In this document: positions 1-21,524 of the stretch, one piece after another | How the letters are laid out: each line of letters opens with the position of its first letter | Position numbering within the stretch: the stretch's first letter is position 1 | Source: Paramacrobiotus metropolitanus | Lineage: Eukaryota > Tardigrada > Eutardigrada > Parachela > Macrobiotidae | Assembly (NCBI RefSeq): GCF_019649055.1 | Contig: NW_026570246.1 | Span: forward strand, 62,001-126,000 | Direction of reading: 5' to 3' | Length of the DNA: 64,000 bases | The notes under the pieces: generated by a model | What the model was told of the DNA's origin: nothing | Database searches by the model: none | The model's input: the letters and a program-made list of their open reading frames with translations, nothing else | Translations under genes and position numbers: made by a program

Positions 1-44
1 CAAGTTTAAGTATTTACATAATTTACGTTTGAATCACTTTCAAG

Positions 45-600
45 GCATCTGACGAAAGCCCCATGGAGTGAAATCGTCACGCCGGACATTCAGGAATCCA
101 TTCAGTGTCACATTGAAGGAACGTGGATCGCTGCTAACTACCTGGTTGGATGGAGCGGAATTTTGCGCCATTTGCTTCCACAGTCCTGTGGCTACACTTT
201 GCAGTGGGAAAGCCTCAAACGTCAAGGGATGGGGTTATTTTTCGACCACTTGACCGTTTCGAAAAAGGACCGCAGCGGAAAGCAGCGGGTTGTGCTGGTT
301 CTCGCAGCTCATGCACCCATCAAAGATTATGGTGATGATGATCTGAAAACCCACGCCGATAGGAAGATGACCTTCATGCGCAGCACGGTGGGCGCACGAA
401 TTGATCTCTTGGCTGCAGCGGGAAGAACGGGCCATCGAGTGCACTGGATCGGTGCGTTCGGATGTCAGTTTGTTGTTGGAGTGAAAAATGAATCTGGTGA
501 TATTATGCAGACGACTAAGAACTGGCACGATGTTTTTCAGGCGTCGTCTAAAGGTGTTCTCCTGAAACTTGTCAAAAGTATTGACGAATTGATCTTGTAA
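45..600 (+). CDS. C-terminal exon of an unrecognised protein (partial)
   Basis: An open frame of about 185 codons starts just after a splice-acceptor-like TTTCAAG at 38-44 and ends with TAA at 598-600. The first base (45) completes a codon begun in an upstream exon that lies outside the window. The protein reads as a compact globular domain: Trp-rich near its start (PWSEIV, GTWIAANYLVGW), then hydrophobic strands (VVLVLAA, FGCQFVVGV) and a leucine-rich C-terminal helix (VLLKLVKSIDELIL). I do not recognise the family and assign no function. No signal peptide or membrane segment is visible. It lies tail-to-tail with Axin, 268 bases from that gene's stop. The long frame and clean acceptor make it likely a real exon; the upstream part is missing. 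Confidence 0.6.
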
Positions 601-868
601 ATAGTCGTAAGCTTTTCTCACTGTTTTTCATACTCTTATTTGCTGTTTCCGGCCAGTGCTGCTGTTGCTTTAGTAAATGTGCAATGTACATTCCAATGCA
701 TAACGTTATAAAAAACGATTAAAACACCACGATCAAACCACAGCGACTTATTTACTGAATGCATTAAGCACGTACAAAAAATACTGCTGCAGATATTGCA
801 AGTTTTCGGAAGACCTGTAAAACCATAAAACAATTACTGAAGTTTATCGAGCCAACGAATTAAGACCT

Positions 869-3800
869 TCAGAATTCCACTGTAGCGGTGATTCGTCCTT
901 CAAGCAGCGGCAACGTATCGTTGTCATTCTTTACTTCATTCCATACGGTTCCAGTACCCGGCACGGCTTCCCGGAAATAATACCTACATACATAACCGCT
1001 GAGTGTCGGTATCAATCATAACGATTTTACAACTCGTACTGTAATGGTACTATATAGATTTTTACATACTTTAAAGCACACTGCACAGTATTAGCATTTC
1101 TTCTATAATTTCCGTTTAAGTATTAATCATTCTGTTAACAGGTTAACCTGCAGTCAGTGTTCAAGCTTCAGACTTACCTAGTCGCCGGTCCAATATTCAT
1201 ATTCGCGGGCAATACATTTTTGAAATTCTTTAAACAGTTCCGTCCTGTCATTTTAGTCATAAAAAAGTCCCCGGTCTGGCCCGTTCTCCACACCACCGTG
1301 AAGCCTTCTTCTTCTTTAACACTGCTCTTCAAACCGTTGCCAGACCGACCCGTTCCCGTATTCCGAGATCGCTGATGGCGCGACATCATGCCCGGTGACG
1401 CCGCTCCTTGGTTCTGATTATGCTTCAACTGCAGCTGATGCCCTTCGTTATCTTTCCGCGGCGGGATAGTTGGTCCACGCGACGACAACTTCGGGGGTTG
1501 AGCGCCCCGTCCCTCTCCGGATGACGGTATCAAGAGGAACGGATGCGGTGGCTGAATGGGCGCCAGTGTGGAACCCTCTCCCAATCCCGAATCCGTGCTG
1601 ATGTCCCGCAAATTCATATGGGTAAACTGCCGGTTAACCTCGCGCGGATTGACCGTCATCGCCGGTTTAAAGTCGAACTGCGCCGGCACAGCAGGACGCC
1701 GATGCTCTTTGACGACAGGCTTGGGCGGCAGGACCTGTGTCGGACGGCCGAACTGTCCCGGTGGATCCCAGGATGTACCGTGCCGGCGACCCCCCTCACT
1801 GGTCGCACAAACGGTCGACGCTTTGGAATACGCTGATGCCGGTTCGCGCAAACGTGGATACGGGCTGGTACAGACGCTGTTGTTGGACGGAGGTGTCGCG
1901 GTTTCCCCCACCCGCTTGGAGTGCTCATTTAGAATGTCCTCGGAATCGTCTGCTTCCGGGGGGACATGCGGCAGTTTCGGTCGACCGGAGGGAGTTTTTG
2001 GGATGGCCAAAAGCTGCGCAACGATGGGCGGAACAGTTGGTGGATCGGGTTTTACGCTTTGGTTATTTCGCTCTGCTGCTTCGCGGTTGGCGATCACGGC
2101 GTTTAGCTTACTTGCTAACTCTTCCGGAACGAAACGAAAAGGTCCGTTCTTACGCGGATCTCGGCTTTTCGGATCCAGTGTACCCATTGCGCGCTGTAAT
2201 TAATACGAATTTCATTCAGAGGAGTTGGTGCATAATGTTATACGAATATTAGAATCTAAATTCGCAAAAGCATCTCGAAAACTGCGGTGAAGGTATCATC
2301 AGAAATGACTGATTAAGAGAACCAATCCTTTTAAATCCAGCTAAAACCTATTGAGCCAAGTATATTTAAAGAACAATGTAATAAAGAAACTCTGTGCATA
2401 ATACCATAATATTATGTAGTAACGGGCAACCGCTTTGAAATGCACCGCCACCATCGTTCCTCACAATCAATCTAGAATACACACCTGATGTTCGGTAAAC
2501 GGCAGCGGAATACTGTCCGTGTGAGCACTGGAATTTAGCTTCGCCATGTGTTTGGCTGCCTCAAAATCCAGCGCATCTCGGCGCGAGTTGCTAGTTTGTT
2601 GAGCGAGGCCGGAGCTGCGGGCAGCGGAAACGGCGCTCCTTCGCGTCAGACTGACTTGACTCAAACTGTCCAATTCGCTTTCCTGTGCTGACGGCATACA
2701 GAACTGGGCATACTTAACATAAGCTTGTCCAGGTTCTCCACCTCCCCTACAAAATATTTTTGCATTTCAGGAAATAGTATAACGAAGAATAACGAAGAAC
2801 AGCATTTAGTAGTATTTCAGGAAAAAGTATAACGATTTCAGGAAATAGTTAGCACATCAGGGCTCGCTAAACGCATTAATCTGGCCTGCATCCCAAATTC
2901 AAATATTAAACAATCACATAATAAGTCAACAATAAATTTATATACGGCATGTCCGAAAATTAGGCAAGCGGACAGATTTGTACAAACTGTACAGCATTAC
3001 CACATTATGCAGCATTGCAAAAAATTATTGCATTACCACATTTTATCCGTCGCCGTCTGATTAGGGGCACTCCGCATTCCGATACTGTTTTGCAGAGCCT
3101 CTCGCGTCAGTCCTGTGGAATGGGGAAGCGGCTTACTCAAGACGGATGTCCGTGGCGGTATCGCCGGAGCACCACCTGCGAGACGATCTTTTTCCGGGAA
3201 ATTCTGCCGAGTTTGGCTAAATGTGTGCCCAGCAGGTCTGTTTGGCCATTCTGGCGGCATAATCAGCGGCGGAGGTGGGGTGGGCGGTGGACGTGAAGGA
3301 AAAGGGCGAGTTTCCGTTTGCGGGGTCAAGTCCAAGCCAGAATCCAAAGGCTGCTGGTAGGGATATATTCGGGACACCATTTGCGAAGCATCCATGGAGA
3401 ACATATTGGGTTCAGGAGATGGAGGTGAACTCGAAGTCTGGCTGGCACCGTCCAAGCCATAGCGCTCTTCCTGCAATTCAAAAGCAAAATAACTACTACC
3501 CTACTGTAGTATTACTTCGGCATATGGCGAATACACATAAAATAATTCAGCTGCATAAAATAAACAACATAAAAAAACTAGTCCACCTGTTTATGTTCCA
3601 TATAAGTAAGTACAAGACGATAATCCGCTGGTAAAATTAAGAAAAGCAGAAAGAAGGCAATCAAAATTCTAAAGTATGACAGACAAATAGTGGAAAATTA
3701 AGACAAATACTGATCATGATGGCAGAAAGCGCGAGCAGCCAAAAGAATAACAACAGAAAATAATACGAATATCTAAATCTCTGTTAAATACATAACCATG

Positions 3801-4453
3801 AAATGATGAAAATCACTAAAAAAATAACTTTCGCTAACCTGTTCGTTGATATACTGGCTATATTTCTGCGACTGCATAAAATTCGGATACAGCTGTTCCT
3901 CCAGCACTTTCCACGCTTCGTCTTGTGCCGTCTCAAAGAGGCTCATTTTTTCGGCAAAGCGCAAATCCCCACTGCTGCGGAACACCTGGTCGAAGCGGTT
4001 GCGAGTTTCAGGCAACAACCACAATCCACCGTCGGCCTGGATGAATTTGACATACATGGAATTGACCAGGCGCACGTGGTTCTGCTGTGACTGTTTCTTC
4101 AGCCCATCACAGGCCAAATATAGATACAGCACATTATCGGCGCCTTCTTTCTGCAAATAATCAAAGAAGACATCCATCCCTGTCGGATCGTCCATGAGAT
4201 TCTGCAGCTTCTGCGACCATTTGCGCCACGGTGGCGTGCTACCGTTCTCCAGCCACGAATCATCCCCGTAATCCGTCCCACTGTATGAGCACTCGGAGCC
4301 CGTGATGGAGCCCTGATGGGAGCCAGCGGGGGAGCGCGGTGGCTCGGTGGTCAGGGAAGAATCTCTATGTGGTGAATGCGAGGCAAATGCTTCGCCACCA
4401 TCGTCATCGTAATACTGCTCCGAAAAATCATGATTGTGCCGTTCTCCCATCAT
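869..4453 (-). CDS. Axin: Axin, scaffold of the Wnt/beta-catenin destruction complex
   Basis: Axin assembles APC, GSK3, CK1 and beta-catenin in the cytoplasm for beta-catenin destruction, and also scaffolds JNK signalling. Five exons with consistent phase: 4453-3839, 3470-3037, 2746-2485, 2193-1178, 983-869; 813 residues, within the Axin size range. Seen: an acidic Ser-rich N-terminus; an RGS domain at about residues 76-203 (starts PPWRKW, ends EQLYPNFMQSQKYSQYI); a Pro-rich linker; SIPLPF near 428, matching the GSK3-interaction region; a helix PEELASKLNAV before the beta-catenin-binding helix DDSEDILNEHSKRV at about 519-532, matching vertebrate DSILDEHVQRV; and a DIX domain at about 734-813 split over the last two exons, ending LPLLEGRITATVEF. 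The start is the first ATG of an ATGATG pair after an upstream stop. No clear tankyrase-binding motif was found. Introns of 369, 290, 291 and 194 bases hold nothing else except short repeats at 2763-2855. It is divergently paired with MAP3K4. Confidence 0.93.
2763..2855. repeat. Short imperfect direct repeats in an Axin intron
   Basis: The phrase ATTTCAGGAAATAGTATAACGA occurs in three variant forms at about 2765, 2813 and 2835, with an extra AATAACGAAGAA duplication between them. It lies inside the intron between Axin exons 2746-2485 and 3470-3037. It looks like local slippage and no function is inferred. Confidence 0.5.
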
Positions 4454-5622
4454 TTTAGTACAGTACACTGTACAACTAACAATAACGCAGCGATTCAAGG
4501 CACCATTCAGAAAGGATCAGCAAAGCCACACGATGCAGTAGATTAACGGCAAAACATAATACAGATAATTTGCTGCAAAACCAGGCAAATAAAACTATTG
4601 TAAAACTTATAAAAATGAAATCGTCTTCGATCGGGGCTCAAAATATTGCAGACGATGGATGCGCAAATGCGTAAGTGGCACTGTGACAGGTATGCTGCGA
4701 TGCCAACAGGTAGTGGCAGATAGATCCGCTGAATTACAAACGCAGAAATCTGTAAACCACAAAATTATCCTCGGGTTAACTTAAACAAAAAAACTGATTA
4801 AAAATATAAAATAGTAAAAATAACTTATTGATTAAATAAGAAAAAAACTTATGTAAAAGAGATGTTGAGCAAACAAAGATCCCGCACAAAAAGTCGATCG
4901 CTAAAGAAAGCTGTGAAAGAGGTTCAGCTGGTGGTTCGCACTTCACAGCTAGAGCGACAGACAGGCAGACAACAGTAGTAAGCAACGGACATCGGTATCC
5001 AGTCGCTGGAAGGATTCGCTACTGAATCTTTAAACTGCAAAAAATGCCAGGTACTCCTTGCTTGGAATAAAACGTAAAACACAGCGAAAAGTATTGGAAC
5101 ATCGCTGTTATTTTTTCATAAGCCGAACGTTACGGTCTGATTATAAAATTTTAGAAACAGTAAGTACTAATAAATTTTTTCGCTGTTTATTGCAGCTGCA
5201 TAGCAGTGTGCAATGTGCATACTACTGACATGCGGAAGTGAACGTACGAGTACATACACCTCGTAAATGAGCATGCAGATTTCCAGTGGCAATATCCGTA
5301 CAAGATTAGGCACCATGCAAGATCGCCTTCACGTGTGCCATTTTAAAGCCTGTTATTTTAAAGAAAAGCGTTCTTCATTTTATTTTTGTAACTCTGTTTA
5401 CCTCTCAAAACAAAAGTTAACCTCTTATGCTCTGGTACCTTCAGTGATTTTATTTTTTTTTGAAATGCTCTCGCTGTGTAGCCACTCTAGTGTACCAATG
5501 ATGCCTTCGTTCAGCAAACGCATTCTCAATTGTGAATTGTTATCTGTGCGGTTCTCCCGCCAGGACTAAATCGTTTATACCTGTCATGTTAATTTTCCTG
5601 CTGATCTTCTCCACCATGCACG
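4454..5622. promoter_or_regulatory. Shared intergenic region between divergent Axin and MAP3K4
   Basis: The 1169 bases separate the Axin start codon (minus strand) from the MAP3K4 start codon (plus strand), so both promoters and both 5' untranslated regions must lie here unless there are distant non-coding 5' exons. No convincing coding frame is seen; the frame at 5267-5569 has no homology and stops before the MAP3K4 ATG. No clear TATA box or operator could be picked out. The assignment as promoter region rests on position only. Confidence 0.55.
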
Positions 5623-8600
5623 ATGGCTGATGGCGAGAACAGCAGTTCCTCCGCGTCGGAAGAGTATTGCGGAGCTGACGGTGATCACGGGAGTTTTGCT
5701 ACTCCCTCCCCCAGTAAACGGCCTCCGTCCAGTGTTCCCCACTCCAATCGCAGCTCTGCGTCACCTGCCCGTCGTCCTTGGGAGGTGCAGCAGCAGCGCG
5801 AGGAGGCTCTCGTGGATGATGTGCATCGGCGGATGGACGGGAAGCCGTCCGTGCGTCGTGGCAGTAAGGGCATAACCAAAGACACCTATGCGAAGAGCAC
5901 CAAACAGTGCGTGCGCAATATCCGCAAGCAAAGTCGCCTGGGTATGCTCAGCGGCACAAACTCCAAGATGACGTCGCCCGAGCATGACGGCCCGGAGAAT
6001 CCCTTCCAGTTTCCGCACAGTGTCTCCAGTATGGCCGTGGGGACGCCGGGCAGTGCCGCGAAACCCGTGACGACGCATCTGTCGCATCGGAATAAGCGCA
6101 CTAAAAAACGCAACAAGGATCGCTCCTACGATCGCGATTTGAAGTTATTGGGTGCTGGTGAGTTTTATTTGTACTATTCAGTGTTTTATTTCGCTGATAA
6201 GACTGCTATATAATTTTCTCACATAAAGATTTGCACGGTATGGGAACGAGTGTGATTGCATCATCTTTCAGTCTGCGAAACTACATATGTTTTCGTAACT
6301 TTAAACTGGCAGATTCACTTGATTAGACTTAAAGTGATAGCAGGCACTGTATTCTTCGCAGCAGCTGGAATTGTTGTTGTTGTTTTTCAAATGGCTTGTG
6401 ACCATGATCACGTTTTTCAGAATCTTCCAGATTGCCTTTCGATTTTATGAAAATTTTCTTGTTTCTAATTATGCTTGTTATTCTCGCGTTTCTGACGTTT
6501 CATAATACCTGTTTCCATGAAAAACGAGGTCGCAGTACATAGTATAATCAGTTTTTGAATGGGTGTAAGCGTAATTATCAGTGTGTGCTGCCGGAAACGC
6601 TCACTTGATAGACAGCTATTATCGTTCTGTGTACCGTGCATGATGTGTCTCGTGCTGTTACGGCAGTAAACTTTCCCGGAAAGGGAGGAAATTGCATTTA
6701 AATTTAGTTTGAAATTGCGCGTAAATTCAGTTTGACTTTTACGGACGTGTTGCTTTTCACCTCGCGATTTAACCAGCGTAACGTGAGTATGAGGATCGTT
6801 GAACCAAACAAGGGAGCGTATTCTGCCTTTTCGGTTTGTCAGCGTGGGTGCGTAGGACCGGATGATGTTATCATGTTATCGCGTTTCATTCTTAACGGTC
6901 TCCATCGCGTGTTGTGCCGCGTGTTAGGCTAATTTTATCTGTTGATGGGTTGTTTTTGGGATGGTATACAATCCTTTGGAGTAAGCGTAATGACAAACGC
7001 AATGATTAAGAGTAATGCTCCAGGCGGGTTTTTTATTACCCCTTTTATGACCTAAATCACTGCTGAGTGTGTGGGTGTTATCGTTGTAATCAGGAGACAT
7101 AAAGCATTCATAACGTAATAGCGGTATCGCTTTGCAGATTACGATCACGGCGGCCGCGTGACGCTCAGCCAGTCTAATGGCCCGCTGCTGGAAGTGGAAA
7201 CCAGCAGTCAGTTTATGAGTTTGGCGTCGCGCCGTGTGGATAAGGAGAAAGAAAACAACGAAAAAGAGGAGCGCAGCGTGGGATTCCGGCGTCACAGTCT
7301 GTCGCGGTCAGCGTCCAGGTGGCCCAATTGTCCGCGTGAGCGCATTAGGTTTTATGAACATTTCGCCGTACTGATCGAGCTGGGCTCGAAAGCTAAACGG
7401 AAACGGGAGGAGCAGCTGCGGAAAGGCGCCACCCCGCAGGCGCCGGAGGCCTTCCGCAATGAACTGAAAGATGTACTGTGGTTGGAGCTGCAGGCCTGGA
7501 TGCACAACCTGGATCTGCATCACCAGGATACCCGGCTAATGCAGGAGCGCGAAAAGATTGACGGGATACTGCGCGGTATCCAGGTCTTTCGTATCGATGA
7601 TCCCGATCTGGCGTCGCCGTGTTTCATCGGTGGACATGATTTGGATACCAAGTACATTTGGAAGCTGCATATGGCTTTCAAGCAGGTGCACACCGTCCAC
7701 AAGCAGCTGGAGGATGTGGAGCATCTGTATCCCTGCACCAAAAATATCGGGCTTTCGCATCCTGTCTACGAAAATCGCCAGTTTCAGGATAAAGTGCGAG
7801 CGCTGAATATGTGGTCCAATTTCTACATGCAGCTCAGCTATCGGCTGCAATCGGTTGCCGGCATCGTTTGTGGACGGAAGAACAATGATGCGTTTCCGAA
7901 ACTGTTCACAAGCACCGGAGATTGCATTCCTGAAGTGGAAGAGTGCAGTGGGTAAGTAAATGGATTAATCGATTTTATCTGTGAAATGAACAAGCCGAGG
8001 TAAACATTTTTACAGTAAACATGCGTGATACTGAACCTAATTTTTCTGAAACGGTTTTCTTTGAACCTTGTGATAATTCTGGTATGCCGCGGATATGAGG
8101 CGATAATCAAACGATTTTAATTCTGACCAAAGTGCGAAGTGCGATTAAAGTCACTTTCGTAAGTAAAGTCCAAACCTCATCAATTTTTTTTATTGCAGTA
8201 TTGGTTTCGATTGTATACGAAAAGCACTGAAGTGCACACATACGCGTGTGTTTATTCCGAAGCAAAATACACTTTTTGGAAAATTTGCACTTTTTTAGGG
8301 ATGTCCTTGATGGACTGGGACCATTTGGAGATGGAGAAGGGAGTCGATCGGGGCTGTCGTCGCGGTGCAGCAGCTATTACGATATGCGGGATTTGGACCA
8401 GGACGATGTGGAGGCCAATGCCAAGTCGATGAAGATCGCTCTGCGTGCATTCCTGGAAAAAGGAATGCGGAAAAGAGGTCTGGAGAAGACCATCAGTCAG
8501 ATAAAAAATCTGATATTTCCGACGCTGCGGCATATACTGAAGAACTTAGAACAGCCTGTAACCAGCGCAGTGACATTTCAGCGTCAGTCATCTGCTCCAG

Positions 8601-11600
8601 AAGGACGTAAGTGTGTATAACATAATGAATAGTTGAATATTTGATAAATTTGGGTATTGCTGACTTGGGTACAAATATGGTAATTTACTGTCTTGGGTAA
8701 TATGTGACAGTTGTTGATAATACTCGTAATAATTTGGAATCGAATCTCCGTAAACGGTAATATTGATCGGTTATGATCCGTTTGTGCGTAATGGCATTTT
8801 CCGGTTGTGGATGATCCAAGTGTAAATATTTACGGAATAATATCGATTTCGTGATTTGGCTATTTTTATATGACTATTACACAGTTTTTGTGAGAAACAT
8901 GAACATATTTCTCACAAAGATTCATGTTTCGATGAATGGCGAATTTTGCGTACAAATTTCTGATGGTCGTCTGTGAATTGTACTTAGCAAGTCAGAGCGA
9001 AAATCCTAGTACATGGACATTTTCCTTGCACTAATGGCCATTGTTCAAAACTAATTGTGATCGTAAGCTGATGTACTTGGAGGCATATAAGTAGAAATGC
9101 GTTTATTTAGTTGGATCACGGTACCCGATCAGTATTTGTCTGTAGAAATATGTACAGTAATCCTTCGTGTAGTTGAATAGACACTTAACATAATTTGGTT
9201 CTGGTTGGTCTAGGTACTGAAATTGACGTGGTCAAACTCTGGTGCGATTTGCACAAAGAGTCCAATCTCCCTTGCCTGGATCGTGTATTCATCCATCTGC
9301 TCCGATTACCGATACGCACACTGCGAGAAGGTATTGCGCTGCGCCTTGAACAGCGCCCGGAAGGCGATCCCGATGTGGCCAGTTTGAATCAGCTTATTCA
9401 CGAGTGCAAAGACACCCTGATCCTGGCCATTTCCATCCGGAAAGACTACATTGAGCTGGGCAGCACCATCCGCCACCACGAAGTCCTGCACGATGATATC
9501 CGTCAGTTGGATGAACTGATGAAGAAACTCCTCGAGCTGTACTTGGAATATTTACAGCAGTGGATCCTAACCCTGCAGAAGGAGATCCGTGCCAGCCGTT
9601 TGCAGAAGACCGTGTTGGAGGATGAGTGGCAGAATATGACGCAGCTGTGCGGTGGGATTGACGATGCCGAACTGGAGCTTCCACAAAAGTTCTGTGCCAT
9701 CGTGCAGGGCTTGTTGAGCGGGATTGGGACGCTGCTGGATTCCGGGTTGGATGATTTTATCTCGTCGTTGTATCAGGCTGAAGAGGGACTGGGTTTATCG
9801 CCGACCAAAGATATGTTCCGACAGTTCTTCCGTGATTGCAAGATTGTGTTTATTGAAGCGAAAGAACGGTGTTTCAAATTGTTGGAGTTTACGAAGCTGT
9901 TGCACAAAGACTTGGAGATTGCGGCCATCTACGAGATGATGGTCAGTATGCCCACATTCCTGTCGATGCTGGTGGAGACCAATCATTACTATGTGGATTT
10001 GGCGGCAGCGGACACTGACCAGAATGGGCTGAAATATCGATTTTTCGTGTCGCAGAATATCGGTAATAACGGCATGCAGGTGGCACGCCTGCTGAATGCG
10101 ACGCTAGGTGGACGGGAGACAGAAAACGATATGGAAGGATACCTGTTGATTGTACCGGCAACGAACGACAAGTGGACTGGAAGGGTGGTGAAGAGCAATA
10201 TTGGCGCGCTGACAGCGATACGGCACAGTCATATTGATTTTGATGCCGGCAATGTCATGTTAGTGGCGTTGAAAAACGGAGTGCTTGCACTGCAGTCGAA
10301 GCAGTTTGAGAAGCGCTTACCGAAGGATTATGTGAAGCCGTCCATTCCGCAGACAACCTGCCATCAGATTATTTCTCAAGCATTGGAAGATATTAAAGGT
10401 ATTTTTAAATAAAGTTTGAATTTCGCAAAATGTACTAGCCATGTATATTATGAATTATCTCGTTTCTTGTGGTTTAGGAGGAATCGCTTGAACTGGGCAA
10501 AAAGATTTGCTCTGTTATATTGAGATTCCAGGAGGAAATTAGGATGAACCAGTTTCCGGAAATTACCGAACAGGATCGATCCTTCTTCACGAAATCTTTC
10601 CGCGATTTATTGCACATGAGCTATAATTTCTCCATGGAATATCATCGGGAGCTGGCTCGGTTGAATTTCAGTGATGAAGAAGCCTTAGCTACGCAACTGT
10701 TTGATTTAGCGCGGCAGTGGATGGATTTTGTGGTGGACAAATGCGAACGAGGTCATGGCACGCGGCCGCGCTGGAGCACGCCGGGTCTGGATTACCTGAG
10801 TAAGATGGAAACATGTGAACTTTGTTTATATTTTCGCAGTTCATGTTTTACGAGTATATCTATATGAATCATCAATTTAGTTACAGTATTAACTTTTTAT
10901 CAAAAATTTGGTCTTTCTTCTGCATTCGCGTATGGCACAGCTACGCGTTAAACGGGTTTTTCTATTATTTTCGTATTTCGTATCACCACTACATGAATCC
11001 ATGGTGCATTGTAATAGTTATGTAGTTTTTGGTATACAGTGTATATCTTTGGTGTGGTGTTTTTAGATATCTTAGTATTTTTCGCTGAGCGCTCTAATAA
11101 CCGAACAGTGTTTTTGTATTTTGCAGCGGTAGCTGTCCGTCCAAACTACACCAAATACATGACCGAGGAGTTATTCCAGAGTTTTAAAACGCAGATCGAC
11201 ACCTGTGTGACTCACGTGATCGGCGATCCTCCCCAACCCGGTCAGAACAAGACACCGGTAGAGAGTCCCACCACCTTTTACCTCAGTCCACCACAGAGCA
11301 GTATTGCGTTGGCTCCGCACCGTTCTTCTCTGTCCTTGTCCGAGGGCTCGTCGGTCGTTCTCGGCAGCTACATCTCGCGGCTGTCGTCGAAGAGCGACAC
11401 GGCGTATGAATCGTCCGAGGAAGATGATTCGGAGATGCATGAACTGCATCACCGCGTCGAAGATGCCGTTGACAAATTGGACAAGAAGAGGAACGATTAC
11501 CTGATGAAGCACAAGTTGGTGGGCATGGTTGTCCCCACGGAAAGTACGTATTATACTTTTAATAGTTCTTGTAAGCTGATGTAGCAAGCTGCGGAAATAT

Positions 11601-13708
11601 TGCGAAATGATCGTGGTAAATATGCATGAAAACAGAATTTCAGACTGATATTACAGACAAAATTTTGTCTTCGGTTATCGTTCGAAATTTGATGGTGTGA
11701 AGTGAAATGCATATGTAGTACTACGTTTCTAGCACAGCATTACCTGTAGCAGTTACTGATAATGGTTATTGTGCTTTTTTATTCCTCACAAACAGCAGTG
11801 GTGCACTGCCTTTGTAAATGCCTATTTGCTAGTCGTTACAGTATAATTTTACAAAACATTTTGCGCCGGGTCGTTAGTATGAATGAATGTATCGTTAGTT
11901 CATTAAAATAGCCATAATTATGACCTTTGTACTTTTGATTTCCAAAAAACTGCTGGTATAGACGTATAGTTGTCATGGTATGAAAAGTTTTGTACGTACG
12001 TACAGCATACCTACTGAGTAATCGATATAAATTTTCTTAATTTGCAGTACCAGTGTAGAGTTTACCGCACCAAAAATAGGTCGCACGTGATGCATTAGAA
12101 ATGCAGCAGTTTATTCCCTATTAAATCGCATTCGTCTTGCCAGTTCGAATTTCGTGGCGTTGAGGAACTCTTGGGCTTTGACAAAATTCGTTTGCAAGAT
12201 ACTCTCAGACGCAATCATTCGGTTTGCGTCTGAGAGTACTGAAATTTTCAGATAAATTGTTCGATTAGTGTAGAGAAAAATTTTACTTTCAGTTCTTTCA
12301 GCGAGGTTGTTCATTGTAGGCACTAAAAACATTAATCATTTGAAATCTCGAAAAGTGGATTTCCGCTGGCGATTGTGCAACAAACTTGGATCTGGCCGAC
12401 ATGCAGATGTCTACAAAGTGATGAATCTCGACACGGGAGGACTGCTGGCGGTGAAGAAATTCTCCGTCAACCAGAGCAACAAGTCCTCATGGATCAACAA
12501 GCTGGCCACGGAGATTGAGTGGCTAGCTGGCCTGAAGCATCCCAATGTTGTGCAGTATTTTGGAGTAGAAATCCATCGCGAGGAGCTTCTTCTCTTCATG
12601 GAATATTGCGATGGTATGGGACGCAGTTTGGCGTTCGATTTTCATTTCGGGTTAAAAAACGTTTGTTCGATCTCAAAATTTAACTTTCTATGAGGGTTTT
12701 CTTCACACTATCAAAATTTCATTCGCATCCGTTTTGTTTCAGTTTCTTCCATAGACTTTCGACTGGCTGATATTATGTATTTTAAGACAAATCTGATGAA
12801 GTTTTCGTTGTGTGCGCTGTCTGTAAAGATATTCTTTATTCGTACTTCGTGTTTAGATATCTCTTCCAGTTCGTAAGTGCTTGCCCTCATTTTCTTTTGA
12901 TGTAAATTTATTGTTGTAGGGGGAACCTTGAGCGATGTTGCACGGCAGGGCCTGGACATTATCATGGTGCGCGTGTACGCCAAGCAGCTGCTGATGGGCA
13001 TTCACTACCTCCACGACAACGCCATTTGTCACTTGGACATCAAGGGACAGAACGTCTTCCTGACCTCCGAGGGCTGCGTGAAGTTGGGCGACTTCAGTGA
13101 GATGGTTAAGCTGGAATCTGGAGATACACGATCGCGCGATGTCCAGAACAACACCGGCACACCGCGTTTCATGTCGCCCGAGATGATCCGCGGGGACGAC
13201 AGCAACGGGATTGGACGCGCTACGGATATTTGGTCTTACGGGTGTGTGGTGGTGGAGATGATCACTGGGAAGACGCCCAAGTTCGACAAGATTGCTGATG
13301 ATAATGAGTAAGTATTTCAGTGGGGGTAGAATTATTTAGATCGTGTGCCGAATTGGTATTCATCAGCCACTGCAATACAATATTCGTAGATTAGTGGCTC
13401 TTACATAATTACGGTGCGCTTCAGTGTGTACATTTAGCCATCATGATAACTGTTTGGGCGTTTGGCATTTTTTAAAGTTTATTTTATAAATTATTACAAA
13501 TAAATTCATGTGTGTTATTACTTTTTACAGGTATGCGATTATGTTTCACGTTGGGGCGGGAGGCCGTCCCAAGATTCCAGACACGTTGAGTCCGGATGGT
13601 AAGGATTTCCTGGACCATTGCTTCGAAAAGAACCCCGATGATCGCTGGCGCGCTGATCGTCTGCTGAAGCATCCCTTTGTAACGATTGATATTGGAGGGG
13701 ATTTGTGA
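5623..13708 (+). CDS. MAP3K4: MAP3K4/MEKK4-type MAP kinase kinase kinase
   Basis: MEKK4 (MTK1) phosphorylates MAP2Ks upstream of p38 and JNK in stress and developmental signalling. Exons: 5623-6157, 7138-7951, 8299-8606, 9214-10398, 10478-10799, 11127-11543, 12320-12613 (or from 12302, six residues longer), 12920-13307, 13531-13708; about 1479 residues versus about 1600 in human. The Ser-rich N-terminus leads into the conserved MEKK4 regulatory region (PRERIRFYEHFAVLIELG, then VLWLELQAW), with the kinase domain at about 1208-1470. Kinase residues seen: loop GSGRHADV, lysine in LAVKKF, HLDIKGQN instead of HRD, DFS instead of DFG, and MSPE. Lys, catalytic Asp, Asn and metal-binding Asp remain. 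The 10398/10478 junction is one base out of phase; one A fewer at 10395-10397 repairs it. Introns of 980, 347, 607, 327, 776 and 306 bases show no other gene; one has a hairpin at 12200. Confidence 0.92.
12200..12238. repeat. Perfect 15-bp inverted repeat (hairpin) in MAP3K4 intron
   Basis: ACTCTCAGACGCAA at 12201-12214 is followed, after a 9-base loop, by its exact reverse complement at 12224-12237. The flanking T/A pair extends the stem to 15 bp. It sits about 80-120 bases upstream of the first kinase-domain exon. No transposase-like sequence is attached. It may be a tiny foldback element or an intron structure. Confidence 0.8.
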
Positions 13709-14930: not shown

Positions 14931-17900
14931 ATGCAGATAATCTGTTCACTCTGTATACTTGCGTTATCATTTCAGTCTCTGGTTGCTGACGCCATAGCAG
15001 CCAACTCGTCGGATTTATCCGCTGCATATGTTCTGCAGGCTTCCTTCAATACTCGCGGGATAAGGGGCACTCGTGACCTTTACGGAGACGACGAATGTTG
15101 CACCGAGCGACGCTACTGAATCACGATCGGGATCCGCGACGACGATTTCCGTAGAGTACTTTTTGGAAAATCCGCAATGGGCTGCCACATCCTCACGGCC
15201 TTCCTCCAAAGATGAACTGTTTATTACCATCCGGGAGTTTCCGGTTATCTTCGGGATGACAGGCGATCAGTGCTCCGACGAGGCGCTGGGCAAACAGTAA
15301 GCAACAGGTGGCGCAAGCACGCCGATAACACAAAAAGTGGATAAAACCCACTCAGTATTATAAAGGCGCTAGAAAAACTGTAAGCAAGAGAAACCTAGAG
15401 GCAAGAAATAAAAGCAAGCATATTTATTCGTTTTTGTCTCAAGCTTTATTTTTATCGCAGTTTACACTGAATAAAGTTGATTGAATATGATGATAAGGCG
15501 CCATCGCACTACAATTTCACCACTTCAATCAGAGCACCAAACTTCAATGAAAGGATTAATAATTTACTTACCGTGAGAGAGCCACTAAAATACCAGTACT
15601 TTGCAAAGTATATATTTATAAAAGTATTTATACAACAACACTTAGTAATCTGTACTTCTAGAGGTGTATATAAAGCAGGCTTGCATAAATCCTTCTATTT
15701 TCAGATTGCACAGTCGGACCTTCCAGATCGGGCCGCTCCGTCTGAACTCTACACTCTCCGGCCGCCTCCCCGCGGTGGACGTCCCTCTCCACTCCCACCA
15801 AAGCATCCTCGGCCGCTCCATCCTCGTCATCAGCACCAAAGGTAAACGCGCCTGCGCCACCATCACCACCACACAGCCTTTCACCAGTCGACTGGCTATC
15901 GCCCGCATCCGGGGCTCCATTGCCGGCGATGTGTACTTCCGGCAGTACGCGGCGGCCACCATCCATACCACCATCTTCGTTGACCTTTACAAACTCATCC
16001 CGGATGGGATGGCCAAGAATGTCACCTATAAGTGGCTGCTGATGACCACGGGACCGTTGGATCGCAGCCGCCCCGAGGATGAAGTTTCCTGTCGCAATAT
16101 GCGCGTGCTGTATGACCCGGATTTCCGGGATGAGGCCGGTTGTAGCCGGGACGCGCCGCAGTCTTGTAAAATTGGGAATTACGAGCAGAAGTTTGGCGGA
16201 TTGTTGATCGGGTGGGTGGGTGCACCGCAGAAGGCCTTTTACACGGACACGCAATTCTCCCCGTCCGGGACGACGGCCGGCAGACGGATTTATGTGGCGG
16301 TATTCTCTCCGTTGAATCCGCTGGTTAGTGTGGCGTGTGGGGAAATTCGGATGCTGCCGCCCAAGGTAGCCGAGGCATCCTTCAGTCAGGATGGTGTTAA
16401 AGGTCAGTACAACTCTAGCCAGTTACCATTTTTTCATACTCAAAACGTGCTAACACTTCTACCGGTATCGATATACTAATTTCGCAGGGTTACTTTTAAG
16501 ATGCAATACTTTGTTTTCAAACAATTTCGATAGAGGTACGTATATATCACTCGTGCAGCTCATCTTATCAGTCTTAACTATTATCATTACGTGTTGACGA
16601 AACGTTTTAAACAGATTTTTTTTTATTTTATAATGACAGTTTCAAGAAAAGTAGTTTCTGTTACAGAATTTAACATTTTTCCGTTCTTATCTTTAGACTA
16701 GAATTGCCGTGCTTAATACAACGTATTAAACAGCCAGTTATTAAACAGAAAATAATACTGGAAACCATATTATCGTATTTTAAGTGTTCCGTGGAGTTAC
16801 ACATTAGACACATGACATCCAGTATATGCCGAAATACCATTATTAATACTGCAGAACTGCAGTGTATTTGGAACTACGTAAGCAAAAGTTAACGTTTTTT
16901 TCCAACGGTCCGATTGTATGGAGTATAGTCAGTATACACTCCCTGCAGTTCGTGATTTCGCACGTAAGACTAAAATATGCTTATATTTTTATTTTGTACA
17001 TTACCGATTCGTCCGCATGATTGTGCATGAACACGATGAACCGACTGCCTTTGTGCAACTCTACAGGTTTGCTGAAATTTGTGCAAGTGTCCCCGCTGGA
17101 TCCAACGGAAGTGTATATAAATTTAACCGGCTTGGCTTCCCGCGCCAACTCCTACCAGCTCCACCAATTTCCCCGCCGGCAGCGCATCAAGCGCAACGAA
17201 GATCTCTGTGTTGCAGCTCACATTGGCAATCTCTACGACCCCTTTAGAGCTGCATACAATCTCGGTTTGACCGTCAACGTCAGTACCGTGGACCAGTGGC
17301 CAGTGGGTGACCTAAGCGGACGGCACGGCAATCTCAGCGGTGTTGACAGTTATGATGCGGCATACGTTGACGAGAATTTACCATTGTTTGGATCACTGAG
17401 TATCATTGGCAGGACATTGGTCATTTACAATAACAGCGTTAACGGATCCAGATGGATGTGCAGCAGTGTGTGGTCGCGAGGGGAAACTGTAACAGCGAGA
17501 GTACGCTTCTTTTATACTGTCGGTAAGGGAGAATAACTTAAACACCACCGTTTGCCGTTATAACAGAAACGGGTGATTATCAGCTAACAATAACAACTCA
17601 GATACATGTACATATATCAACTCTGTATTACAGTATTGTGCGATTAAATGTTTGTTGAAACTTGATCGCCCAGATATTATAAAGTGTAGTTTGTAGTATT
17701 GTTAATTTTGCATTCATAAATTGATGTCAAAAAGCGAAAATGTTTGTCTATACTTTTATTCACAATAATTCAGTATTGTTCGTACTACGACTTCGCTCGT
17801 AGATTGGTCAAACCTACTATACGGGACAGTACTTTGATCGCCCACGTATTATGATTTTTCAATATCAATGAGGTTTTAAAAAGTTCGTTTCTATCCCTTT

Positions 17901-20900
17901 CACGTATTCAACTTTTTTTCTCTTTGCCAAGACACAGTATACGCTATGATAGTCACCGTTCTAGTTACCATTACTTGTATAACCAGTAATAACCAGCATG
18001 ATCACCAATCGAACAAACTTCATACTCAGTTCATAGAAACCTCGGCATATCGCTTATTTCTACCTTACGTCGGACTTTCGGTTTATTCATTATCACTTGA
18101 AATGCAATTATAAAAATTAAAAGTGTAAGTGCAACACACGATATCGGATAACAGAACATGTAACACGCCGCATGAGGGGCTGGTGATCAATGTACTGACT
18201 CGTACAGTAGGTTTGACCAATCTGCGAGCGAAGTCGTAGTATATACTGTACAATTGTTAGTGTATACAATATTGTTAGTCTGTATGTTTTGTGTAACTTG
18301 TATTATATTTATATGTACATATTTATAAATGCGTACATATTTCAGAAATGACGAGTTCTTCTGTCTTTGCGTTCAGGTTTTATATGAATGTCGAGTTTTG
18401 TTCGGCTTCGGTTTTAGGTGGGGAAATATTTTTGCGTCAGGCTGCGGACGATTGGAGAAGTGAGACTACCATATTCGGCAACCTGTTTTACACAAACGGT
18501 GTACCGCCGAACTTCACCAGCAACCATCCGTGGCGTGTCCATTCCGGCATTGTAGAGCGGGATGCGTTTTCCTTTGATGACCGGTGCATTAACGCGCTGG
18601 ATGTGTACAATCCTTTGGATATGGATATACGAAAAAACTACGCAACGGAGTGCCTTCCATCCCGGCCACTGCGCTGCCGCTTGGGTGACCTTTCTTTAAA
18701 ACTGCAAAATCTGGTGGTGGCCCTAAAGGGTTCCATTGGAAACGGGCGCTTTCTGTTTACGGATTCCTTCTTGCCGCTCACCGGGCCCATGAGTGTTGTG
18801 GGCCGGTCAATTGTAATTTACACTAAAGAACAGGGAACTGATCGGCTAGCCTGTGGCAACATCCAGAAGGTACACCAAAAATGTAAACTAAGTGTCGGAT
18901 CCGTAGTATTGTACATGTAGAAGAAAAGTTACAAAATGCTGTTGTAGGGGAAATTGGTTTAATCTTTTAACATATATTTTGATTTGCACTGTTGAAACGG
19001 TTTGTCATGAGAAAAATTCGATCTGATGATTGCAGGTTTATCCAGTGAAAGCGACGGCAAAGACCTGGGTAGGTAAAACCAACATCAAAGGTTACATCAC
19101 CGCATCACAGCCTACTAGCTTCCAAGACACGGAAGTGATTATTAGACTGCAAGAGCTAGACCGCGCCGCGACATCCCTGACGGTTCATGTGGGTCCGGTG
19201 GAGAACGACTTGGTTATTCCCTGCACTGAAGAATCCCTTGGAAGTACGAAAACTTTATACGATTATACTGTATACACAGGATATACGAATATCCTGTGTA
19301 GTGCATTTAGTACAGGGTCACTCTTGACCTTTGACACCGCAGACAATATTGCAATAATTATAAGATACAGTTGTGCCGTGGCATTACGCGCATGTTCGAA
19401 ACTTTTATATCTCTAATTTTAGCAATGTACGAGTGCAGCATCCATGTGTTCACAATCTGGAAAAAATTTTTCGTATTTTATTTTAAAGTTGTAACACTAA
19501 CTAAACTAATATTTTCAGAGGACTATAATCCTTTGAATACGTCAAACGCACCGTCGCAGAACACATCATTGTCGGCTGAAGTGTCAACAGACGATTTATA
19601 TGCCGTTGGTGACCTTAGGTAATACATATACAAAAGAAAAACGCAGTGTGCGGACTTTGTACACTTTTACAATTTCGTTGTCTCCTGTTGTATACAGCGG
19701 TAAATACGGATCTCTGTCTGGATTAAGCTCTTATGACCGGCAAGCTTTCGATGAGAATCTTCCGTTGGCCGGTCTGAACAGTGTTGTGGGCCGCTCTGTG
19801 GGAGTAAGACAGAGCCTGGAGAGCCGCAGTTTAGCCTGTGCGGATATCGTCCACGATATTGACGAGCAGGATATCAAAATCAAAATCGTACACGCTATTG
19901 CCGAATTTCCTGGACCTTTCTTGTGGGGCTACATGCGTATGGTAGGAAAATCAGAAAGATTAAATTTTCTATGTGGAAATACGCAGCAGGCGTTGACTTT
20001 GCACATTGTTGTTCGCATATTTAATTTTCGACTTTTACATTTATTAAAGAAGTCTTGTTTTAAATGAACCTTTCCGCCATAAATAAGCGACAAAAAAACT
20101 TGTCTCACGGTTTCTGCAGGCCATTTCGATTAATAAACTTAAGTGAAAATTAACGTGGATTTTTGTACAGTTCCAGGTAGTATACGCCGACGGAAGTACA
20201 TCACCGTTGACCATTCAGTCCCGTCTGGCGCATATGGTCAATAACACCATCGACTACCTGAGACCAACTTCCGAGTACCGATGGTCAGTGTGCCAGTTGC
20301 CGGTTGCTACGGATGCCGCAATTATTTACGAAGATTTCCGCTGCATCACCGCGGGCTTGGTATGCGTGTAGACTTGCTTCACCCAATTTTCTGCGGGCTC
20401 AATACATAAATTACTCACTGTACTGTATTTTTAATGCATGCATACGTAATGTGTCTGCCTGTTTAGTACATACAAATATATAGATATTTCGTATTTTAAT
20501 ATCAGATAAAATCCTAAAGTAAAAGAATAGGCGCGAGTGCCCTTTGTTATTTTCTGTAACTTTCTTACTAAATAATTATTCTGATAACTAAAACTGTGTA
20601 CATATATTGAATTTATAAATTTCTTCGTGTTTTTGTAGACCGATAATTACTTTAACACCTTTGTGGAAGGGCAAGAGTACCGTGATGAGTGTTGGGCCGG
20701 TAATCCAACACGGTGCTCATATGGGGACGTGACGCGCCGTTTAGGAAAAGTTCGCATTTCTTTCGACGAACGCCAAGTCTTCACCGACGATATCTTGCAA
20801 CTGCAAGGAAACATTTCCCTTATCGGACGGTCAATTGTGGTTTTCGATACAAGAGAAGGCGATCAAAGGGAAATTCGGTTGGCGTGTGCAAATATTCTGG

Positions 20901-21524
20901 AGGAAGAACACGCACAAGTGACAATTAATCTGCAGCATGCCGGCATTTTTGACATGTAAGTAACTTCGGAGCAAAATACTAAAAAACGTAACTAAATGAG
21001 TCATATTTATAAATCGCGAACAATTACGCTTAATCATACATAACAATTACAATTTAGCAGTTAAGCCATCTATAAGTTAAATCTGTACTGCGTTTATTGT
21101 AACGTGTAACGTTGTAACGTGACCTTTGCATTATAGCGTGGGATTTGAAGAGCACGTGGTGCGAGTGTCCAATCTGTCCCAATGGAACGTGCAGATTGAT
21201 TTCGGCAATGTCAAACGCATGTACCAGGACTCTTGCGTGGTGGTGGACGTCCATTTCAGGGCACCCAAAGCCCTTAGCGTCATGCGGGCATTTACCAATC
21301 TGATCGATCTGGACCAGTTCTCGTTTCTCGGATATCAAAACTGTGATAAGAAGAAGTACCGCAAATTATTAGCCATGCTGACGGGAGCAGTGACCGTCTC
21401 TTCTTCCGATCGGGAAGCGGAAGACGATCACGATGGAGCTGTACGACTGTTAAGCGGCGGCGGCATATATCACGTTGCTTTGTTAATTCTCGCATTTTTT
21501 GCATCAAAATTTTTGATGATATGA
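14931..21524 (+). CDS. Secreted/GPI-anchored Cu-only SOD-repeat-like protein (CSRP) with six SOD-like domains
   Basis: CSRPs are extracellular animal proteins made of repeated domains derived from Cu/Zn superoxide dismutase. Exons: 14931-15296, 15705-16402, 17067-17522, 18346-18869, 19036-19243, 19519-19618, 19698-19941, 20171-20359 (or from 20177), 20639-20955, 21137-21524; about 1162 residues. An N-terminal signal peptide (MQIICSLCILALSFQSLVADA) comes first. Six repeats then end in the SOD signature: GRSILVI..ACATI; RRIYVAV..VACGEI; GDLSGRHGNLSG..IIGRTLVIY; GDLSLKL..VVGRSIVIY..RLACGNI; GDLRSGKYGSLSG..VVGRSVGV..LACADI; GDVTRRLG..LIGRSIVVF..RLACANI. The C-terminus (LLSGGG then a hydrophobic run ending FLMI) looks like a GPI-attachment signal. 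Copper ligands are largely replaced, so enzyme activity is doubtful. The first exon carries a one-base break at the GGGG run 15064-15067. Introns of 408, 664 and 823 bases hold no gene; the last of these has an inverted-repeat element. Confidence 0.85.
17783..18241. mobile_element. MITE-like element with about 40-bp terminal inverted repeats, TA-flanked
   Basis: The left end at 17783-17823 (key run CTACGACTTCGCTCGTAGAT then TGGTCAAACCTACT) is nearly the exact reverse complement of the right end at 18201-18241, with about two mismatches over 41 bases. Each end is bordered by TA, as expected for a Tc1/mariner-type target duplication. The internal 380 bases have no transposase frame, so it would be non-autonomous. 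It lies in the 823-base intron of the SOD-repeat gene. The class assignment is inferred from the TA border only. Confidence 0.7.
19273..19300. repeat. Perfect 12-bp inverted repeat in SOD-repeat gene intron
   Basis: ACACAGGATAT at 19274-19284 and its exact complement ATATCCTGTGT at 19289-19299 surround the loop ACGA; an outer T/A pair adds one base pair. It lies 30 bases after the splice donor at 19243. Confidence 0.75.

Follow-up and report, generated by a model that had tools for sequence, protein, structure and literature searches.

The genes for the scaffold protein Axin and for the kinase MEKK4 (MAP3K4) are head-to-head neighbours in the tardigrade Paramacrobiotus metropolitanus, within a stretch of 64,000 nucleotides of contig NW_026570246.1 (positions 62,001 to 126,000 of the forward strand; hereafter the window, whose own numbering is used below). 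The Axin start codon at 4453 on the minus strand and the MEKK4 start codon at 5623 on the plus strand face away from 1,169 gap-free bases, exactly as an earlier note made from the letters alone (the original prediction) had described when it proposed a shared bidirectional promoter. In the genome searched (169.8 Mb in 533 contigs; the searches score the best candidates only), the only intact-looking MEKK4/MAP3K4 gene that was found adjoins Axin. We consider it probable that this is a chance adjacency in a fast-rearranging genome, without selection for the Axin-MEKK4 pairing, because the successive gaps are short throughout, tardigrade synteny is low, the shared region is without CpG enrichment and local duplication is visible. 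This reading is also favoured because copies of both genes elsewhere stand without the partner, and because the MEKK4-binding segment of human Axin is unclear here while two Wnt-binding segments are detectable.

Gene structure and identity of Axin and MEKK4

The Axin gene and its exons are as follows.
4453-869, minus strand: Axin gene, five exons, ATG at 4453, stop ending at 869
3839-4453, minus strand: exon 1, start codon at 4453, RGS domain
3037-3470, minus strand: exon 2, GT/AG ends and open frame
2485-2746, minus strand: exon 3, GT/AG ends and open frame
1178-2193, minus strand: exon 4, GSK3-binding and beta-catenin-binding segments, first half of DIX
869-983, minus strand: exon 5, second half of DIX (DIX profile 41-77), stop ending at 869

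All four introns are bounded by GT and AG, and translation runs without interruption to give a protein of 813 residues. Pfam recognises the RGS domain in its N-terminal part, both in the whole protein (1.2e-14) and in the open frame 3773-4453 (1.5e-15), which consists of exon 1 plus some intron codons. The best PDB matches of this frame are the Axin structures 1dk8 (1.6e-15) and 1emu (5.1e-14), followed by RGS10 (3.8e-10), and the RGS exon as a query gives one match in the genome. At the C-terminus, DIX is found above the cut-off at residues 753-811 (Pfam 4e-9, whole protein); in the PDB this part is weak, with Dixin as the best match (7.4e-4) and Axin chains only at E 1.5-1.9. Further segments were compared with the human GSK3-binding and beta-catenin-binding peptides. 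The alignment score of the GSK3-binding segment is reached by none of 1000 shuffles of the whole protein, and that of the beta-catenin-binding segment by 8 of 1000. We assign the 813-residue protein to Axin because of the order of these parts, and the identity proposed in the original prediction is borne out by RGS and DIX in Pfam and by 1dk8 as the best RGS match. Axin has been published for Hypsibius exemplaris (OQV22259.1, scaffold0018) and Ramazzottius varieornatus (GAV03998.1, BDGG01000010) (PMC8711157).

The MEKK4 gene, on the other side of the gap, is composed of nine exons.
5623-13708, plus strand: MEKK4 gene, nine exons, ATG at 5623, stop ending at 13708
5623-6157, plus strand: exon 1, start codon at 5623
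7138-7951, plus strand: exon 2, MEKK4_N (Pfam 2.1e-22)
8299-8606, plus strand: exon 3 of the gene model
9214-10398, plus strand: exon 4, MEKK4_N (Pfam 4.9e-41)
10478-10799, plus strand: exon 5, MEKK4_N continues
11127-11543, plus strand: exon 6 of the gene model
12320-12613, plus strand: exon 7, kinase N-lobe
12920-13307, plus strand: exon 8, catalytic loop HLD and DFS motif
13531-13708, plus strand: exon 9, kinase end and stop

Besides the frames of exons 2 and 4, the joined exons 5-9 match MEKK4_N (PF19431) at 6.1e-26, and the C-terminal protein kinase domain (Pfam Pkinase, 4.6e-58) has a MAP3K as its best PDB match. The two Pfam families identify the gene as MEKK4, as predicted. All eight introns have GT/AG ends and seven of the eight junctions are in frame. 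The junction of exons 4 and 5 (10398/10478) has canonical splice sites and is crossed by the MEKK4_N match, and is one base out of frame; an unusual splice site, an assembly error or a lesion could each account for this offset.

The glycine loop, the lysine and the aspartates are functional motifs of protein kinases. In exon 8, the MEKK4 kinase reads HLD at the position of HRD in the aligned MAP3K2 and DFS at that of DFG. Its glycine loop is incomplete. The lysine and the two aspartates are retained, so that the protein may still be active, though its kinase motifs are altered. A kinase relative at C1:1266776 (locus L012) has HLD, as in this MEKK4, but DFG.

The shared intergenic region and its surroundings

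The region between the genes is a single unbroken stretch.
4454-5622, no strand: intergenic region between the two start codons, 1,169 bases, without N

A CpG- and GC-rich shared region is the vertebrate hallmark of bidirectional promoters. The region 4454-5622 is not of this kind: it is AT-rich, with a GC content of 0.388, and its observed/expected CpG ratio is 1.02 vs 1.12 for the window. At gathering thresholds, Rfam gives no match in the window, this region included, and in the genome search the region matches only itself. A bacterial-type promoter scan of the region gave no hit where 3.3 were expected in shuffles, with a model that is not suited to animals. TATA-like words are present and were not used as evidence, since the DNA is AT-rich and there was no shuffle control for them. 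Short repeats between 4300 and 5800 comprise three direct families of two copies and two inverted pairs. The sequence thus offers nothing positive for regulation from one bidirectional promoter.

A hidden gene in the region was considered and rejected, as the longest open frame has 100 codons, a length reached by 70 of 300 dinucleotide shuffles. A codon-usage scan of the window, with 4454-5622 held out of training, found no coding segment there at score 12, a threshold at which 4/5 Axin and 9/9 MEKK4 exons are touched with each of three training sets. At score 6 the three training sets gave 1, 0 and 3 short segments in the region. With 81-190 segments called across the window, the scan is not a gene finder. 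Six upstream ATGs lie within 300 bases before the MEKK4 start and two before the Axin start. One of them, in a CCACC context, stands 7 bases before the MEKK4 ATG and opens a 4-codon frame that overlaps the MEKK4 start (5616-5630). An unseen 5' intron could remove these upstream ATGs.

The gaps on either side of the pair place the shared region in its local context. Axin is followed by a convergent gene, of which there is a second copy in the genome (83% identity).
22-600, plus strand: convergent neighbour gene (part), open frame, without Pfam family

Its stop lies 268 bases from the Axin stop. On the far side of MEKK4, ~1,222 bases separate that gene from the next one, whose start is our reading of a signal-peptide-like frame without Pfam match. 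The three successive gaps are therefore 268, 1,169 and ~1,222 bases. This next gene (~14931-21524, bounds read from open frames) is likely secreted; within it, a stretch with similarity to Cu/Zn superoxide dismutase scores 3.6e-4, which does not reach the curated cut-off, and three other frames tested in it are without Pfam match.

Published figures for two other tardigrades with smaller genomes are of the same order. Hypsibius dujardini has 45.13 Mb of intergenic DNA for 19,901 genes and Ramazzottius varieornatus has 23.89 Mb for 13,917 genes (PMC5531438), which by our own division corresponds to ~2.3 kb and ~1.7 kb per gene, respectively. By what could be seen of local and tardigrade spacing, the 1,169-base gap is thus ordinary and not special. 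In the passage cited, local synteny is low between these two species (PMC5531438). Therefore, a random neighbourhood is the default expectation, and an old, kept Axin-MEKK4 linkage would be notable.

Copies of both genes elsewhere in the genome

MEKK4_N occurs at one other place among the matches listed, in a 717-codon open frame at C75:140668-141567. This relative shows 32% identity over 743 aligned positions and has its kinase N-lobe on the opposite strand; it may be a processed or rearranged copy (locus L005, C75:134500-144400, 5185-9093). The stretch C75:667723-668582 holds kinase fragments, of which one contains a stop. A query with the MEKK4 kinase C-lobe was scored for the best 150 of 598 first-look candidates, several of which cluster on C16, C104, C105 and C205. 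A local expansion of MAP3K-like kinases on these contigs is possible, and kinases of any kind may match such a query.

C-terminal pieces of Axin were found at C255:77493-77944 and C77:602859-603320. The corresponding partial copies of the 3' end, DIX included, span 8904-9448 of locus L003 (C255:68500-78400) and 457-921 of locus L004 (C77:602400-612300), with 53-71% protein identity. A few kb from the fragment in L003, at 2303-4574, there are long frames that by eye resemble a Polinton/viral type B DNA polymerase. A middle piece of Axin lies at C26:43707-44006, on the same contig as the window; next to it, C26:42870-43427 carries the second copy (83%) of the convergent neighbour. At the DNA level, window positions 38-2144 match C26:42868-43999, 19 kb away, with 86% and 90% identity. 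Since the neighbour copy stands beside the Axin piece, a local duplication took part of the neighbour gene together with the middle of Axin.

No partner was found beside these copies. Beside the duplicated Axin piece, C26:36000-62000 is without an RGS-exon or MEKK4 match; among the matches listed, C75, the site of the MEKK4 relatives, is without an Axin match, and C255 and C77, the sites of the Axin tails, are without a MEKK4 match. As the copies are partial, they provide little information on where a full pair might earlier have lain.

Searches of other collections and with another query gave the following. One scan of the viral contig collection with the Axin RGS frame gave no match. In the genome contig collection, MEKK4 exon 4 as query matched two bacterial loci at 29-30% identity over query residues 96-191, which were judged to be chance, and one scan each of the two collections gave no animal locus. 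A Hypsibius CAHS protein had 18 matches in the P. metropolitanus genome, of which the top two show 66% and 71% identity; to our knowledge, CAHS proteins are known from tardigrades only, and the matches thus mark the genome as that of a tardigrade.

Partnership, chance and the origin of the adjacency

The claim of the original prediction that vertebrate Axin binds MEKK1 and MEKK4 and activates JNK is supported by passages in three papers (PMC10826278, PMC6956378, PMC10992237). It had also stated that no report of such a linkage was known, and our literature searches likewise showed none for Axin-MEKK4 linkage among the papers listed. Residues 678-712 of human AXIN1 are given as the contact for MEKK4, with a 730-765 region named in addition (PMC10826278). 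The score of the latter against this Axin is reached by 213 of 1000 shuffles of the whole protein and by 580 of 1000 for the stretch before DIX; for 678-712, the whole protein gives 121 of 1000. To judge by alignment, the human MEKK4-binding segment does not appear to be clearly detectable in this Axin.

The probability of a partner next door also has to be considered. With tardigrade gene numbers (PMC5531438), the chance that one named gene is among Axin's two neighbours is 2/N, or ~1.0-1.4e-4. Axin is a hub, for which more than 20 binding or modifying proteins are named (PMC10826278). Since it has many partners, some partner as a neighbour by chance is likelier than 2/N, and with assumed numbers we estimate ~0.2-0.3% or more for any known partner. 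Anyone who looks through thousands of gene pairs will come across such cases.

We suppose that rapid local rearrangement, as reported for the phylum, would have made two conserved signalling genes divergent neighbours in a tardigrade lineage, so that the pair is presumably specific to it. Axin and MEKK4 would then each probably be transcribed from an own start and promoter within a 1.2-kb gap of normal length, and if they share open chromatin or are co-expressed, this would be incidental rather than the mark of a selected scaffold-kinase unit. Several points weigh against chance adjacency. Human divergent pairs under 1,000 bp are described as not arising from random rearrangement and as functionally relevant, with 66 conserved in fly and 50 in worm (PMC12672016), and with start codons 1.17 kb apart the transcription start sites could be less than 1 kb from each other. 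In the stretch before DIX alone, the 678-712 segment gives a score that 31 of 1000 shuffles reach, which hints weakly at similarity. Binding of MEKK4 may also survive changes that are invisible to alignment.

These points bear on the alternatives to different extents. It is unlikely, in our judgement, that the two promoters occupy one common open region of 1.2 kb and produce partial co-expression with the partnership itself not selected. The distance of 1,169 bases permits this, and in yeast, 76.1% of head-to-head pairs are within 800 bp and such pairs are no commoner than expected (PMC3303733), while neighbour co-expression has no noticeable tie to shared factors (PMC2045684); the lack of CpG enrichment in 4454-5622 argues against it. 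We find it quite improbable that the pair is a selected, co-regulated module, in which a single bidirectional promoter would keep the output of Axin and MEKK4 matched for JNK signalling. Divergent orientation, the close spacing, the vertebrate partnership described above and the general claim that close divergent pairs are functionally relevant are in favour of it, but the gap provides no positive promoter evidence, local spacing is ordinary and tardigrade synteny low, the MEKK4-binding segment is not clearly detected, the kinase motifs are altered, and no pairing is seen among the copies found elsewhere.

A broader form of this idea, in which tardigrade Axin and MEKK4 would be a coupled, co-regulated pair, the HLD/DFS kinase would be scaffold-dependent and one region would set both Wnt and stress-kinase signalling, is speculative and very improbable. 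An assembly artefact is the least credible explanation, with hardly any probability in our view. The out-of-frame junction of MEKK4 exons 4 and 5 and the partial Axin copy on the same contig would fit it, but the window is without N, the gap is without a second match in the genome, and each gene begins at one edge of it with an open, spliced frame.

Were the pairing conserved throughout the tardigrades, gene order would suggest that Axin, MEKK4 and JNK form a functional unit in a group in which many Wnt genes have been lost. As it stands, the locus is one more divergent gene pair, of use chiefly for a cheap synteny test and as a caution that known binding partners are sometimes neighbours by chance.

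As in the Axin family (AXIN1/AXIN2, PRY-1), the RGS, GSK3-binding, beta-catenin-binding and DIX parts are in the usual order, whereas the MEKK4-binding segments of the human protein are not clearly detectable and the weak DIX part is closest to Dixin in the PDB. As in MAP3K4/MEKK4, a long MEKK4_N region precedes a C-terminal protein kinase domain with a MAP3K as its best PDB match, although HLD replaces HRD, DFS replaces DFG and the glycine loop is incomplete. Unlike human divergent pairs with bidirectional promoters, which are less than 1,000 bp apart (PMC12672016), the pair described here has 1,169 bases between coding starts and is without CpG enrichment; it shares with them the opposite orientation of two genes away from one short intergenic region.

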